Positions 10,595 through 17,982 of a stretch of DNA of 31,992 nucleotides are shown here, piece after piece. The stretch lies in IMG/VR virus record IMGVR_UViG_3300034198_003105, positions 1-31,992 of that record; one strand, given 5' to 3'. Position 1 is the stretch's first letter; every line of letters begins with the position of its first letter. The stretch is from a virus. Both the position numbers and the translations under genes were made by a program. A model generated the notes under the pieces. That model was not told the origin of the DNA, searched no databases, and worked only from the letters and a program-made list of their open reading frames with translations.

Positions 10595-10652
10595 AATTAT
10601 TTAAGTATTTTTTAAGCTGTTCAATTTGTTTCTTTGATGCTTTAAACTTCAT
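10527..10652 (-). CDS. Possible small protein, 41 residues, overlapping the next gene
   Basis: Frame from ATG 10650-10652, overlapping the stop of the connector gene by ATGA. The product starts MKFKASKKQIEQLKKYLNNY, a basic helix, and ends in a polar tail. It fills the 54-base gap but overlaps the next gene by 68 bases, and the tail part mirrors that gene's coding sequence, so only the first half looks like an independent protein. A longer frame to 10709 lies inside the connector gene and is not accepted. Confidence 0.35.
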   Translation of the reverse strand: MKFKASKKQIEQLKKYLNNYGKNIKPTTEGVRADRNRTPAN

Positions 10653-11167
10653 ATAATAAAATTTATTGGCGTATATCCCGAGCGATCCGCAAGCATATCT
10701 TCGGAACAAGCTCCAGGGCTTGAAGATGATTGATTATATTCCGGATATAAAGTTCCATTATCCGCTCTCAAATGAACGATTAATCTTTCTTTGTAGAAAT
10801 ATGCATCTTTTCGCAATTGATCTCGCAAAGCGCTTGTTTCGCCATCGGTATTCGGTGTTATATTTTCATCTTGAATCCTTCCAACGGATTTATTCGTTAA
10901 TTTCTCATTCAATAAAAGCGCGCATCTGTAATCAACAAATGCAACCAAGCAAGGCGTAACAAAATCATTCATTAAATCCAAGTATGGTTGTGTCCAAGTG
11001 TTTGTATTTACGCGTAATAATAGCGCTTTGAATAATGGAGTTGTTAACGCCGGTTGTAATTGTATATCCTGGCTTCTTTTAATAGCAACCGCGAGTAATT
11101 TAGTGTCCGTATTCATGTGAATCAATCCAAGCTTCTTTAAATTGTCAACCGATAATAGATAATCCAT
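10649..11167 (-). CDS. Head-tail connector / adaptor protein
   Basis: 172 residues, mostly helical. It has an IQLQPALTTPLFKALLLRV helix, a TWTQPYLDLMNDFVTPCLV segment, and DQLRKDAYFYKERLIVHLR, which I recall from adaptor-like proteins that sit under the portal in Bacteroidota siphophages. The polar NQSSSSPGACSED loop near the end is typical of structural proteins. Gene order (portal, MuF, small Cys protein, then this) agrees with a head completion role. Family assignment is by pattern and position, not by a strict motif. Confidence 0.6.
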   Translation of the reverse strand: MDYLLSVDNLKKLGLIHMNTDTKLLAVAIKRSQDIQLQPALTTPLFKALLLRVNTNTWTQPYLDLMNDFVTPCLVAFVDYRCALLLNEKLTNKSVGRIQDENITPNTDGETSALRDQLRKDAYFYKERLIVHLRADNGTLYPEYNQSSSSPGACSEDMLADRSGYTPINFII

Positions 11168-11180
11168 AATTTTATTTTTG

Positions 11181-11366
11181 TTAAGTTGTTAAATTTTCTT
11201 CAATTATTGGTTCAAATATAAATTTGCCAATTTGCCCTTCAATAATTTCGGAATGATCATTTTCGCCAAGCAATATTTCATCTGGAATACTTTCCGGAAA
11301 AGCCGGGCAACCAATTATTGTAAAATTTTTACATTTTACACAAATTAAATCTAAATTTTGTGTCAT
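11181..11366 (-). CDS. Small cysteine-containing protein, 61 residues
   Basis: C9, C12 and C20 (ICVKCKNF...GCPAFPESIP) followed by an EILLGENDHSE segment suggest a small metal-binding fold; with H37 the set could hold one zinc. The pattern C..C.....GC.AFP..IP..I..G...H is one I recall in short proteins near phage portal and MuF genes. The start ATG 11364-11366 overlaps the end of the MuF/metallopeptidase gene by four bases, so the two are coupled. Function unknown; it may help head assembly. Confidence 0.6.
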   Translation of the reverse strand: MTQNLDLICVKCKNFTIIGCPAFPESIPDEILLGENDHSEIIEGQIGKFIFEPIIEENLTT

Positions 11367-12391
11367 TTTTTAAAGTGTTTATCAATTAAATTTCCGACTA
11401 ATATAGCATATTTTGATGGATTTGAATTTAATTTATATTCCATAAATAATTCGGCATGAAATTCATCAATATTTGAATTTGAATATTTTCCGGTATAAAT
11501 TTTATTCAATCCTTCAATGTCTTTATTTTTATATAATTCTAAAACTTCTTTGTTATAATTCTTTTTAATTTGTGCCAACTCTTTCCAATATTGCAATTGC
11601 TTTGTGTTGTTTGTAAATGATGCCACTCTACTGTTTGCAATTACATGCGCAAATTCATGAGTTGTAACTCCAATTTGTGAATTTTTTACATCAATTTTGT
11701 TTCCAAAACTTTCTTGACTATATCCTTTATCTGTTATCCAAGCTCTTCTTGGATCAATTGATTCGTAATCAACTTTATGGCCAACATTTATATCTGTAAT
11801 TTTGTACTTCATTCCTTCGATAGTTCTTTCTCCAATTTGTCTAACTACCCCCAATACTCGCCCCTTTGAATTAAAAACTAAATTTATTTCATCGGAAATA
11901 TTATTATCAATTTTATATTCACTAAATAATTTTTTTATTGCAATCAATCTTTTTTCAAAATTTTCAACTTTCAATTCCGAACTAACTGAAATCTTTGCTT
12001 TTATTCCAAGCGCTTCTTCAATAATTTTTTCCGCAAATTGCTTTCCTTCTTTTATTGTTTGTATTTTTATTTCGCCAACTTCAATTAATGGAGCTTCCGG
12101 GGCTGTTTCAACCGATGGCCTTTTTATTGTAATTTGTTGAACCCATTCATGGCGGCAAAATGGAGTTGTAACTCCAGTTTCCGGGTTTGTGTACCAACCG
12201 CCTTTGTATTTCCAAACATCGCGATCAACCCTGGATGATATTGCATTAATATCTTCGCGAGTAAAGATCCGATTTAATTCAAGCAATTTTTCACAAAACG
12301 CCCTTGTTTCGGTTTTAACCGGTGGCACATCGGGGCGGGTTCGATATGAGTAGCGAATTTCAAATTCCGGGGTTTCGCCATCCCCAGTTAC
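11363..12391 (-). CDS. MuF-type head protein segment with C-terminal zinc metallopeptidase, probably made by -1 frameshift from portal
   Basis: 342 codons in the -1 frame after the portal stop. The first part has SYRTRPDVPPVKTETRAFCE, GGWYTNPETG (43-52 counted from the GTG at 12328) and TPFCRHEW, a conserved C-terminal block of portal/MuF proteins. Residues about 75-321 form a separate domain with HEFAH (224-228, same numbering) and a likely third zinc ligand in DEFHAELF (E293), the pattern of gluzincin-type metallopeptidases fused to phage head proteins and of injected toxins. The frame has no ATG; only a poor GTG lies inside the conserved block, so independent initiation would cut it. Expression by fusion to portal is the better explanation. 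The metallopeptidase may mature the head or enter the host with DNA. Confidence 0.75.
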   Translation of the reverse strand, partial: VTGDGETPEFEIRYSYRTRPDVPPVKTETRAFCEKLLELNRIFTREDINAISSRVDRDVWKYKGGWYTNPETGVTTPFCRHEWVQQITIKRPSVETAPEAPLIEVGEIKIQTIKEGKQFAEKIIEEALGIKAKISVSSELKVENFEKRLIAIKKLFSEYKIDNNISDEINLVFNSKGRVLGVVRQIGERTIEGMKYKITDINVGHKVDYESIDPRRAWITDKGYSQESFGNKIDVKNSQIGVTTHEFAHVIANSRVASFTNNTKQLQYWKELAQIKKNYNKEVLELYKNKDIEGLNKIYTGKYSNSNIDEFHAELFMEYKLNSNPSKYAILVGNLIDKHFKK

Positions 12392-12397
12392 TTTCCC
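12367..12397 (-). promoter_or_regulatory. Programmed -1 ribosomal frameshift signal
   Basis: The minus strand reads G GGA AAG TAA: the slippery heptamer GGGAAAG (12391-12397) is in the right phase and directly followed by the portal stop. It is the same heptamer used in the lambda G/GT tail chaperone frameshift. Three bases later GGGG (12382-12385) can pair with CCCC (12369-12372), extended by flanking pairs to six, as a small stimulatory hairpin. A slip of one base leads into 342 open codons. Confidence 0.7.
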
Positions 12398-13944
12398 TTA
12401 CCGCCTGGAGTTAAAGTTATTTCTCCAATCTTATCAAATAATTGATCATGCCTTTTCATTACTTCATCATGCGGAGTATTCCATTCAATTGGAACGGTTC
12501 CCAAAACAATATAATCATCTTTGCTTTCTCCAAACTCTTCAAATATCTTTATTTCTTCATTTGAAAATGAATCATGTTTGCATTTTGAAAAGCCAATTGT
12601 TGGCAATCCAACAATTTTGCGCGCTTGTGTTTCATCAATGGAAGGAAATGAAGCCAAAATTATATTTAACGCGGCATCTTTTGTAAGGATTCCGGTATTA
12701 ATTTGGGCGGCAACTTCAATTAATGAAGCAATTTGCGCTCCATTTAACGCGGATTTTGCAACATCAACCGCAGCAACATCCACAACTGGAGCAATAACGC
12801 CCGGATTTGTTGTGTCAAGAACTGCATTTGCATCGGTTTGTTCAATAAGTAACGGCATAACATCGGTTAATTTTACGCTTCCAACATAACCGCCAAGCTT
12901 TGCCATGTAATTAATCATCCATTCAATGCGCTTTTGCCTTGCGGAAACATAAGTTGTTTTAAATATCTCAAATAAATCCGCGGATTCCGCAGCATTAAAT
13001 GAACCGGTTTGAATAACTCCAAACAATGTTGGTGCGGTTACACTATGCGCAACTAAAATATTTTGTTGAACGGATGCCGCGGTTACTGAATAACGCTTAT
13101 CAAGATCATTGCCATTTAATTGTTGAACGCTTGGCGCCAAATCCGCGCCATCGGAAAAGGTTATAATAATTTCGCCGGCATCTTCAACGGATTGCGTACG
13201 GCCTTTGATTGAATCAGTAATCCTTCGCAGCTCTTCGCTTGATTCCGGGAATCCGCTTGGCATATTGATCAAGGTTCCGGATTTGAATCCATTTTGCAAT
13301 TCGTACATATGAAATTTAGCAATATCAACATCTGTTTGAATCGCTGTCAAACCCCCTTGATAAGTTGGCTTCGGATAAATTCCCTTTTCTTTGCGAGATT
13401 TCTTTGCCGGTTCCTTATAATAAAGAACAAATTGGCCAACCCGGTTATTTTCATCCAGGGCGGGGAACATTCGTAAGTTAGTTTTTTCCGAAGATTGTTG
13501 CATTGCGCTCCAATCATCCGAGATGTAATAAGTCTTTTCATCTTCGCTCATTCGAATGCGATCAACATCCAAATATTCCCACAAAGCAACGCGAGTTCCT
13601 TCCCGGTTCCAAGTACCTTTAACACAAAAACCCCCGAACATCTCAAAATCAAAAGCCATTTGTTCGGCAATCTCATTCATATCAAATTCCGAATATTGGT
13701 TGCGGATAAATTCATCCATGTTCCCGGATACGGTTTCAATTCCATTGCCGGCAATATAAAAAGTTTTTGTTTTTATAATTCCTTGATGCCAAGCGCTTCC
13801 ATTATATAAATCAATCAAAAAATAAGGATAATCATTTTTCTTTCCCCACTTTACAAATCCAAGTTGGCGATCTTTTTCTTCTTCTGGTAGCATGAAATCT
13901 TTTCGAAAAGATAAAGATGTCATTTTTATTTTGTCGTTATTCAT
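12388..13944 (-). CDS. Portal protein
   Basis: 518 residues from ATG 13942-13944; a TTG nine bases upstream is less likely. Portals form the dodecameric ring through which DNA enters and leaves the head. The sequence shows the usual order: an N-terminal DYPYFLIDLYNGSAWHQGII with the early helix, FEMFGGFCVKGTW, WEYLDVDRIR, a DIAKFHMYELQNGFKSGTL stretch that is a recognisable portal segment, and ITTS-type helix SVTAPTLFGV with FNAAESADLFEIF near the C-terminal part. The C-terminus has an EEFGESKDDYIVLG tail and ends GGKGK before TAA. The stop is the second half of a frameshift site that would join it to the metallopeptidase frame, giving an 860-residue fusion. It overlaps the preceding gene by eight bases. 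Confidence 0.88.
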   Translation of the reverse strand: MNNDKIKMTSLSFRKDFMLPEEEKDRQLGFVKWGKKNDYPYFLIDLYNGSAWHQGIIKTKTFYIAGNGIETVSGNMDEFIRNQYSEFDMNEIAEQMAFDFEMFGGFCVKGTWNREGTRVALWEYLDVDRIRMSEDEKTYYISDDWSAMQQSSEKTNLRMFPALDENNRVGQFVLYYKEPAKKSRKEKGIYPKPTYQGGLTAIQTDVDIAKFHMYELQNGFKSGTLINMPSGFPESSEELRRITDSIKGRTQSVEDAGEIIITFSDGADLAPSVQQLNGNDLDKRYSVTAASVQQNILVAHSVTAPTLFGVIQTGSFNAAESADLFEIFKTTYVSARQKRIEWMINYMAKLGGYVGSVKLTDVMPLLIEQTDANAVLDTTNPGVIAPVVDVAAVDVAKSALNGAQIASLIEVAAQINTGILTKDAALNIILASFPSIDETQARKIVGLPTIGFSKCKHDSFSNEEIKIFEEFGESKDDYIVLGTVPIEWNTPHDEVMKRHDQLFDKIGEITLTPGGKGK

Positions 13945-14305
13945 ATATTTCAAAAGTTATTGGCGATTCATAAAAATTATTTGTTGTTGGTGCTTCAACC
14001 ACTTCGGCGCGCCCGGTTTCAACAATTCCTTGCGATAATGTTGGATCCAAATTTATTGCGCTTGTTTGTTGGTAAATATTATAAACATAAGAACCGTTAT
14101 AATCAAAAGTCAAATCAACGCCATCAATCAAAACAAATTCATCAAAGCGCGAAATTGCTTGGCTTACATTCGTTAAAATGCAAAAATAAGATTTGAAGCT
14201 TTGTTCGTGGATGAACTCAAATAGATAGTTCGGCGCCGGGATTGTTGTCAATTCCGTTACCGTTACCACTATCGGAGTGCTTCCGCTTCTTTGTATTATC
14301 AACAT
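13937..14305 (-). CDS. Small structural protein, 122 residues
   Basis: Starts MLIIQRSGSTPIVVTVTELT and continues with PNYLFEFIHEQSFKSYFCIL, a beta-sandwich-like pattern common in short neck or tail proteins of Bacteroidota phages. No catalytic motif or membrane segment. The ATG at 14303-14305 lies inside the preceding small gene (89-base overlap), and the end overlaps the portal start by eight bases. It is probably a virion component; the exact role is unknown. Confidence 0.65.
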   Translation of the reverse strand: MLIIQRSGSTPIVVTVTELTTIPAPNYLFEFIHEQSFKSYFCILTNVSQAISRFDEFVLIDGVDLTFDYNGSYVYNIYQQTSAINLDPTLSQGIVETGRAEVVEAPTTNNFYESPITFEIYE

Positions 14306-16685: not shown

Positions 16686-17297
16686 TTATGTATTATGTTT
16701 TCTTGTTCGTAAATTTTGTTTCAAATCAAGCAACGCTTGAAATATCGATGCCATTTGTTCATCTTCTTTTGCATCCATTAAATTGAAAACTCCTTCAATT
16801 GAGAATCCATTGAACTTCCCTTCTTTTGCTTGGTTGAATATTTCTTTGTCGGTTACTTTGTAGCTAACAATCCAAGATCCATCATTCGCATCTTTGAATC
16901 TCTCAGGCGCTGTAAATCCTTTTTCATTATCTATTTGATAAGAATGAATCATATAAATTCCCTTAACAACTTTGGAAGGATCATGATCCAGATTAACATT
17001 GTTAAAATTTTCTTTTCTCGCATAATCAAATATTATATCCTTAACCGCTTGTTTGGTAAAAACAACATAATATTCTTCGGCTGTTTCTTTTTCATATCGA
17101 TAAATTGGAGTATCCGCGGAAATTGCTATTCCGGTTATTACTTGTTCTTCTTCATTAAATTCAAAAGCCATTTGCTTGGAAAAAGTCATAAAGTTTTTTT
17201 CATGCGCCGGTTCCCCAACAAGTGAATTAAAAGAAACGGTTGTTTCGGAATCTAATAAATCGATTGATATTTCGTAAATTGGTAAATCTTTTATCAT
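16686..17297 (-). CDS. Prohead maturation protease (XkdF-like)
   Basis: 203 residues. The pattern is that of XkdF-like serine proteases of Bacteroidota phages: SLVGEPAHEKNF (25-36), VITGIAISADTPIY (53-66), NNVNLDHDPSKVVKGIYM with H105, GSWIVSYKV (140-148) and FNGFSIEGV with S166. H105 and S166 are the probable catalytic pair. The enzyme would trim scaffold and capsid during maturation. It lies directly before the scaffold and capsid genes. Copy B of the 19-base element abuts its start, and copy C overlaps its last codons. The divergent Stealth gene starts just upstream. Confidence 0.82.
   Translation of the reverse strand: MIKDLPIYEISIDLLDSETTVSFNSLVGEPAHEKNFMTFSKQMAFEFNEEEQVITGIAISADTPIYRYEKETAEEYYVVFTKQAVKDIIFDYARKENFNNVNLDHDPSKVVKGIYMIHSYQIDNEKGFTAPERFKDANDGSWIVSYKVTDKEIFNQAKEGKFNGFSIEGVFNLMDAKEDEQMASIFQALLDLKQNLRTRKHNT
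16691..16709 (-). repeat. Late-gene 19-base element, copy C
   Basis: Minus strand CGAACAAGAAAACATAATA, overlapping the end of the protease gene and 17 bases before the scaffold ATG at 16674. It is identical to copy D apart from the second-last position, TAATA versus TATTA. Confidence 0.55.
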
Positions 17298-17300
17298 ATA

Positions 17301-17319
17301 TATTATGTATTTTTGTTCG
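17301..17319 (-). repeat. Late-gene 19-base element, copy B
   Basis: Minus strand CGAACAAAAATACATAATA, three bases before the protease ATG at 17297. Read on the plus strand the same bases contain TATTTTTG (17308-17315), an exact TAnnTTTG -7 element pointing at the Stealth gene, so the stretch may work in both directions. Confidence 0.55.
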
Positions 17320-17982
17320 ATGAATTTTGTTTATCCATATAAAAAACGTTCCGAAGAGTTTGAACTCATCCATTCAATCCGATGGATTCGAATGAGTTTT
17401 CCCCTGGCAAAAGTTTATGTTGTTGGCGATTATTTCCCGGATGTTATTCACATCCCTTGCAAACAATTTAATAATATCCGCGGTTGCGATGTAACCAATA
17501 AGATGTTAACTTTTGCAAATCAAATTGGCGGGAAATTCATTTATATGAATGATGATTTCTTTTGTACTCCAAATTTAAAACCCGAAAATCCAATTTATAA
17601 GGGGAATTTAATCGTTAATGAATCTCATCCCCCGCATTATCAAGTTGCTGCAATGAATACCCTTGAATTTTTAAAGTATTACAACCGGCCAACTTTAAAC
17701 TATGAAACCCATTCGCCCGTTTTAATGGATTCTAAACGCTTAATTAAAACATTTGAACAAGTTAATTGGAAGGATGATAATCATTTCATCAAATCAATCT
17801 ATTTAAATAGTAATATCCCCAAGAAATCCATTGAAGGATTCAATTGCAAAATCAATTCATCCAACATTCCAACCGCTTTGCAATATTTGGATGTTCATGG
17901 ATGCTTTTCAACCGGCAAAGCGTTCCTTGATGATGCCGGGGCAACCTGGATTAAAACTTTGATTTTTGCTCCGCAACCATAA
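17320..17982 (+). CDS. Stealth-type sugar-phosphate transferase
   Basis: 220 residues, the only plus-strand gene. Stealth proteins transfer hexose-1-phosphate in capsule synthesis and are recognised by the NDD motif; here KFIYMNDDFF (72-81, D78/D79), then SHPPHYQVA (102-110), NYETHSPVLMDSKR with H131, and a C-terminal FSTGKAFLDDAGATWIK. Length matches the core without N-terminal extension. An upstream in-frame ATG at 17305 exists, but it would put TATTTTTG, a probable -7 element, inside the gene; with the ATG at 17320 the message would be leaderless. Its 3' end overlaps the tape measure gene convergently by 32 bases. Likely a moron acting on host or virion glycans; donor and acceptor unknown. 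Confidence 0.78.
   Translation: MNFVYPYKKRSEEFELIHSIRWIRMSFPLAKVYVVGDYFPDVIHIPCKQFNNIRGCDVTNKMLTFANQIGGKFIYMNDDFFCTPNLKPENPIYKGNLIVNESHPPHYQVAAMNTLEFLKYYNRPTLNYETHSPVLMDSKRLIKTFEQVNWKDDNHFIKSIYLNSNIPKKSIEGFNCKINSSNIPTALQYLDVHGCFSTGKAFLDDAGATWIKTLIFAPQP

Follow-up and report, generated by a model that had tools for sequence, protein, structure and literature searches.

Ribosomes that translate the portal protein gene of an uncultured group of phages very probably slip back by one base at the end of that gene, so that a share of the portal subunits would carry a putative effector of the MuF type: a predicted zinc metallopeptidase, most likely borne in the phage head and encoded next to a small partner that is immunity-like by position. 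The gene was analysed in a stretch of viral DNA of 31,992 nucleotides (nt), positions 1 to 31,992 of IMG/VR virus record IMGVR_UViG_3300034198_003105, referred to here as the window. A portal is a ring of twelve subunits. The heptamer in question, GGGAAAG, is also the slip heptamer of lambda G/GT.

The portal protein gene lies on the minus strand at positions 12388–13953 and comprises 521 codons from a TTG, or 518 from the ATG at codon 4. Its product matches the PHROG portal families phrog_11226 (7.4e-27) and phrog_33693 (1.9e-16), has no match to Pfam portal families at an E-value of 1, and in frame 0 ends in PGGKGK. The 3′ end of the gene reads CCA GGC GGT AAG GGA AAG TAA, in which the slippery heptamer G_GGA_AAG (12391–12397, minus strand) is in the X_XXY_YYZ phase and is abutted by the frame-0 stop TAA (12388–12390, minus strand). 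The portal identity, and a lambda-type −1 site in phase with the stop directly after it, had both been read correctly in a first-pass annotation made from the letters alone. A TAA in the −1 frame (12400–12398) stands directly upstream of the heptamer; thus, within the window, only the heptamer stretch lets a −1 slip join the two frames. From the heptamer to its own stop, the −1 frame extension (11363–12397, minus strand) has 344 codons counting GGG AAA. The first-pass annotation had seen the long open frame but took it to be free of ATG; two are present, at codons 196 and 319. With the codon use of the window, the chance of a gene ending in xxG GGA AAG is p = 8.5e-5 per gene and 0.003 over the 35 listed genes; in-phase GGGAAAG occurs four times in the 9254 codon positions of these genes, and only the portal one is at a gene end. 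A second in-phase GGGAAAG in the portal gene, at 13846 near the N-terminus (KWGKKND), has counterparts near the start of many in-frame relatives and probably comes from the protein sequence.

Relatives were collected from IMG/VR by a portal search (123 relatives, of which the best 80 were used), by searches with the extension (42 loci) and with the extension of the group-2 relatives described below (14 loci), and by a profile search (best 80 of 449); a search with a junction pattern that included the heptamer gave 12 contigs, all 12 of which had already been obtained by portal likeness. Loci with a CRHxW domain, with which the extension begins, number 197, comprising the window and repeated contigs; those left after removal of repeats at 98% identity are called non-redundant. 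The CRHxW domain is in the portal frame in 153 loci and in another frame in 42, and two loci are without a portal. Group 1, the frame-change class, was defined by frame alone (portal and CRHxW domain in different frames); in group 2 the portal, the CRHxW domain and a tail behind it share one frame; and tail-less loci (88 non-redundant) have nothing after the CRHxW domain. Among annotated phages, the only matches to the portal were four Nonlabens phage records at 22% identity, and among host genome contigs there was one match, a tail-less portal (L203) in an Enterobacterales bin, from which no host is inferred.

In group 1, GGGAAAG stands at the junction in 42 of 42 loci, or 12 of 12 non-redundant ones, and HExxH is retained in the −1 frame of all 12; the comparison of related phages that the first-pass annotation had proposed was run and came out with the heptamer conserved. 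The 11 relatives in this group come from 11 different IMG dataset numbers. The stop after the heptamer is TAA in eight of the 12 loci and TAG in four (L149, L154–L156). In 11 representatives (TAG loci left out), the GGGAAAGTAA block and the GGGG and CCCC arms downstream are invariant; in the same 11, third-codon positions are invariant at 19% of 96 in the portal and 24% of 80 in the extension. In one further locus (L150), a stop at 2377 breaks the portal frame some 350 nt ahead of the junction; L149, with an identical junction sequence, has no such break.

The GGGG and CCCC arms belong to a stem-loop, CTGGGG-N9-CCCCGG (12367–12387, minus strand), the arms of which lie at 12387–12382 and 12372–12367. 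The GGGG/CCCC hairpin that had been placed three bases after the stop is present, but two bases separate its GGGG, part of the conserved core, from the stop, and 5 nt separate it from the heptamer. Across 13 aligned junctions, of which 10 are distinct, the stem (columns 12–17 with 25–30) pairs in 91.7% of cells, compared with 35–70% when the arms are slid. L149 has a double change from G-C to C-G at one stem pair; at the inner pair, A-U, G-C, G-U and U-A all occur. To judge from the alignment, the stem is probably real, with modest support from these compensatory changes.

The extension comprises the CRHxW domain (12119–12376, minus strand; extension residues 8–93), followed by an HExxH metallopeptidase domain (11366–12067, minus strand; residues 111–344), which contains HEFAH at residues 247–251 and DEFHAE at 311–316; HExxH and the downstream glutamate are conserved in every aligned sequence that extends to them. 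The extension of the window has no Pfam match at E 1 and no PHROG match. Among 14 relatives, the Pfam family Peptidase_Mx matches six (best 1.5e-4) and ATLF two (best E 0.05), and ncbifam gave weak, scattered matches only. Modelled with AlphaFold, the extension comes out fair to good over residues 111–344 and poor ahead of them, 104 of the 344 residues having a predicted local distance difference test score (pLDDT) below 50. With this model, Foldseek against the PDB gave nothing under E 0.1 (weak unrelated matches, best E 0.12). VIA-align against the PDB placed gluzincins of the ATLF/PPEP type on top (best Z 9.7, root-mean-square deviation 4.4, 180 residues; PPEP-1 at Z 7.7 over 145–152 residues, a Bacteroides caccae putative zinc metallopeptidase at 5.8), with metallopeptidases or putative metal-dependent hydrolases in all of rows 1–47, and these scores call for caution, since Z 7–8 is often attained by models that lack clear relatives. 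The domain is thus predicted to be a zinc metallopeptidase of ATLF/PPEP-like fold, in keeping with the zinc-metallopeptidase end proposed in the first-pass annotation: it shares with these gluzincins HExxH, the downstream glutamate and the predicted fold, at an identity of at most 18%. A whole model of one in-frame fusion (L061) was poor (mean pLDDT 54.7) and was not used, leaving the CRHxW domain without a usable fold.

In group 2 the arrangement is reversed. Its members have either the peptidase in the portal frame (L061, L062, L123, L126, L127/L128, L129, L132, L059) or a different tail, with HELRH (L073, L074, L076, L130, L131, L134). At the homologous place these genes have an in-phase heptamer, as CTG GGA AAG, from which the −1 frame ends within 11 codons, reading GKD, GKE, GKEIRRE, GKVRRRD, GKDSRRNRNL or GKVNRRDSESI before the stop. 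A slip in group 2 would yield a short portal and normal reading the long form, a polarity opposite to that of group 1. CTG GGA AAG is constant in 10 of 10 group-2 sequences, which are 50–98% identical, and CTG makes up 4% of their leucine codons. Among 234 residue-invariant columns (methionine and tryptophan excluded), 44 are codon-invariant, including one of 14 for leucine (the junction CTG itself), two of 27 for glycine and three of 17 for lysine. In groups 1 and 2 alike, the heptamer is conserved beyond the constraint of the protein. The dnaX gene has a Shine-Dalgarno-like (SD-like) site upstream of its slip site. In group 2, GGAG stands 14 nt upstream of the heptamer in eight of nine sequences and 13 nt upstream in L127; as a control, 752 of 3906 (19%) other codon positions in group-2 portals have any of five SD-like words 5–17 nt upstream (the words are those of PMC4066793, the spacing limits nearly so; this and the other papers cited by PMC number are drawn on in part). 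A single heptamer at a single place would then be used in both polarities and with two kinds of stimulator.

All of the non-redundant tail-less loci (88 of 88) encode the CRHxW domain in the same open frame as the portal. The start of the extension therefore descends from the portal itself, and this favours regarding the fused product as a portal form. Five changes are needed for group 1, and again five for group 2, on a tree of 70 portal sequences; thus, the junction and tail together behave as a cassette exchanged between portals. In some tail-less portals, L002, L012 and L053 among them, a winged-helix-like stretch lies between the portal core and the CRHxW domain, for which L002 and the tailed outlier L099 give weak Pfam matches; by eye, it is missing from groups 1 and 2.

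The cassette is found on other carriers as well. The same peptidase stands behind true MuF domains in three metagenome loci, L177, L195 and L202 (PF04233 at 4.6e-14, 9.3e-14 and 6e-7, above the cut-off), and in gp028 of Flavobacterium phage lotta8-2, which is annotated with PF04233 and has 32% identity to the domain in the window. Since the cassette is also borne by a MuF minor head protein, the peptidase is most likely an effector transported in the head. Among annotated phages, the peptidase was found in lotta8 records only; these are filed under Pippivirus, and the record notes state that the label “structural protein” of gp028 rests on similarity. The authors of the lotta8 work consider their pippiphages exclusively lytic (PMC7077304). 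The portal fusion itself had been labelled MuF in the first-pass annotation, a label that is rejected here: the PF04233 profile matches neither the window, nor the extension at E 1, nor three in-frame relatives (L061, L002, L073) at E 0.1, yet it matches the three true MuF proteins with the same peptidase. Relatives with MuF in one ATG-started gene, which that annotation had named as a refutation, took a different shape: one-gene relatives exist as portals with the CRHxW domain in frame, and the peptidase occurs separately on real MuF proteins.

Directly behind the peptidase lies a companion gene of 61 amino acids (aa) with CxxC (11181–11366, minus strand), which overlaps the peptidase end by ATGA and is immunity-like by position only. 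Such companions (58–67 aa, CxxC) follow the peptidase in 19 of 21 tailed portal loci, which is 19 of the 19 testable, since the contig of L059 ends inside the peptidase and L099 has another tail. They are present in four of four MuF loci, three of which were also used as queries, and in none of the 88 tail-less loci, 80 of which have at least 300 nt behind the portal. The companion was also matched in lotta8 and, at E 5e-4, in a faecal phage record that has no annotation. Small immunity genes stand behind MuF toxins and are in part proven (PMC11699363), and by analogy the companion may have an immunity role. The next gene, a DUF6712 gene (10649–11167, minus strand), marks the cassette boundary, its like standing directly after the portal in the five tail-less relatives inspected.

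The following mechanism is proposed. It builds on what the sequences show, namely the anatomy of the junction, its conservation, the domain shared with MuF proteins and the linkage of the companion; the slip and its rate, entry of the fusion into the ring, the activity and role of the peptidase and the immunity role of the companion are inferred. A share of ribosomes would slip back one base at G_GGA_AAG, and the stem-loop that starts 5 nt further on probably assists them. In E. coli, GGGAAAG ranks in the top three heptamers: about 0.3% of ribosomes slip on it unaided, and stimulators raise this figure greatly (PMC4066793). Most ribosomes would stop and release the short portal, and the rest would produce a portal of about 860 residues with the CRHxW domain and the zinc metallopeptidase. 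The portal ring would be a mixture of both forms, with the slip rate setting the number of peptidase-bearing subunits. In group 2 the heptamer would act the other way round, the long form being the product of normal reading and the short form that of the slip, which suggests selection for having both forms and not for which of them is the default. Peptidase and companion would be a movable cassette, borne by MuF in lotta8 and the three metagenome loci. Whether portals are thereby a second loading dock, such that the cassette moves between MuF proteins and portals and a slip site of either polarity sets the number of effectors per virion, is an evenly balanced question; the HELRH tail of group 2, behind CTG GGA AAG, would be another cargo at the same dock. 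One carrier of that tail, L073, has a weak PhageMetallopep match and is without a companion gene. If the mechanism is true, ratio control sits in the ring through which every genome passes and the minor part is an enzyme, which opens two testable questions: whether portal rings are mixed, and how head-borne effectors are kept at few copies.

Several observations weigh against the frameshift reading. All loci were collected by likeness to the window portal, the window extension or group 2. The presence of a tail and that of the heptamer are associated, which speaks for the frameshift: of 110 non-redundant junctions (one incomplete), 20 of 21 tailed and 16 of 88 tail-less ones have it in usable phase (Fisher p 3.5e-11). 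Both the counts and the p value ignore shared ancestry, however, and the 16 tail-less cases show that the heptamer is not exclusive to peptidase carriers. In the 16 tail-less loci (L070, L075 and 14 between L171 and L198), GGGAAAG at the homologous place encodes part of an LGK or MGK motif, in 13 as CTG GGA AAG; it lies 37–43 nt before the CRHxW match, and the −1 frame ends within eight codons. These heptamers may be relics, chance occurrences or sites making a CRHxW-less portal, and the group-2 heptamer may in part have been inherited with the LGK/MGK motif. The tailed exception, L099, has another kind of tail and no in-phase GGGAAAG near the junction. At low slip rates group 2 would make mainly long portals, and neither few cargo copies nor a common dose follows. 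In group 1, 11 of 12 loci lack an SD-like site 5–17 nt upstream; the 31-nt stretch at the junction has 23 invariant positions, and the best such stretch in 870 nt has 25. Covariation in the stem comes from few changes: of 500 shuffles, 23 reach the covariation score and 26 the percentage paired, and 155 match the number of pairs changed on both sides. The stability of the window stem is ordinary for its composition (z 0.19 over 50 nt; seven other folded stretches range from −1.46 to 0.43). L099 and L115 are distant portals (open frame of 850 aa) that end in a further kind of C-terminal tail.

Four other explanations have to be weighed. The frameshift may be real and the peptidase may serve virion assembly, clipping the portal, a scaffold or another head protein, with the companion as an assembly chaperone or inhibitor. 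Proteolysis is common in phage heads, and the peptidase is attached to a portal or a MuF protein, both of which are head proteins; however, the window encodes its own XkdF-type protease in a separate gene (16686–17297), 88 of 109 non-redundant loci manage without the tail, and other tails occur at the same place (HELRH in L073, a different one in L099). The small gene behind the effector, moreover, fits the gene pairs of MuF toxins (PMC11699363), and a role in assembly is thus rather unlikely, though of some weight. The heptamer might, secondly, be kept for the encoded protein alone, as an LGK or GGxGK motif, and never cause slipping. The homologous place is indeed often xLGx in tail-less relatives, and the 16 tail-less heptamers fall in LGK or MGK motifs. 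In group 1, however, GGA AAG is preceded by the codon TCG in six loci, GGG in four and AAG in two, such that the residue before GK varies (S, G, K) and only the final G of the codon stays; in group 2 the rare CTG is invariant; and the peptidase frame of group 1 would be hard to reach. Conservation for the protein alone is therefore very unlikely.

It is equally hard to credit, and if anything harder, that reinitiation, or a start at the GTG at 12328, yields a separate peptidase and that the heptamer is incidental. This GTG, at extension codon 24, is the earliest possible start in the −1 frame, and it is the first ATG, GTG or TTG not only of the window but also of L001 and L023–L025, i.e., five of the 16 loci for which start codons were listed (L149 and L154–L157 are not among them). 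In the other 11, the first start is at codon 41 (L006, L067), 57 (L007, L008), 86 (L026, L027), 105 (L009, L032, L048, L060) or 110 (L049), and would cut the CRHxW domain, which starts at residue 8–12; in the last five loci the domain is thus not makeable by separate initiation at these codons. The invariant heptamer would, in addition, need another reason. A sequencing error or broken gene, which a single record would allow, is refuted by the relatives, the same junction being present in 12 non-redundant loci with TAA or TAG and HExxH in all 12.

In the open-licence PMC literature searched, no frameshift in a portal gene was found: the phage frameshifts described there adjust how much of each form of a tail chaperone, tail tube protein or capsid protein is made, and the word portal is absent from PMC3711429 and from the first 300,000 of the 475,107 characters of PMC5009743. 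What is already known comprises MuF toxins, portal-MuF fusions in one frame, and capsid and tail proteins made by frameshifting; a frameshift in the portal gene would be the new element. As in the −1 frameshift of the lambda tail chaperone G/GT (PMC5009743), there is an in-phase heptamer and a downstream frame is fused to the end of the first product; unlike in lambda, the gene is that of the portal, the stop abuts the heptamer, an enzyme domain is fused and there are relatives with opposite polarity. Frameshifted capsid and tail-tube proteins (Lactobacillus A2, Listeria PSA, A118 and A500, and T3, PMC5009743; SPP1 gp17.1*, PMC6316719) also come as two forms of one virion protein, one of them C-terminally extended, but there the protein is a major one of the head or tail, its extension in several cases Ig-like, whereas here a portal bears a peptidase. 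In dnaX, the slip gives the shorter protein in many bacteria and the longer in a few (PMC4066793), a reversal that parallels group 2 versus group 1; group 2 resembles dnaX in its upstream SD-like site and in the shorter product of the −1 slip, and differs in being a viral structural gene with the heptamer GGGAAAG. In-frame portal-MuF fusions are known from Microbacterium phages of subclusters EA3, EA5 and EA8 and cluster EB (PMC7302621). There, too, a minor head domain is joined to the portal, but frameshifts are told in that paper for tail chaperones only, and the domain fused here is not a detectable MuF. The peptidase domain is common to MuF proteins, and a small gene lies behind the effector, as in MuF polymorphic toxins (PMC5576092, PMC11699363); unlike in those, the carrier is a portal without an N-terminal MuF domain, and a frameshift would set the dose.

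Rfam and tRNA searches gave nothing in the window, and none of five relative records searched, which are possibly fragments, has an integrase (the window itself was outside that search). Between a tape-measure-like gene and the protease gene lies an open reading frame of 225 aa (17305–17982, plus strand) with no Pfam match at E 0.001, and positions 1356–2567 contain a gene for a DegT/DnrJ/EryC1 aminotransferase (Pfam 6.9e-92).
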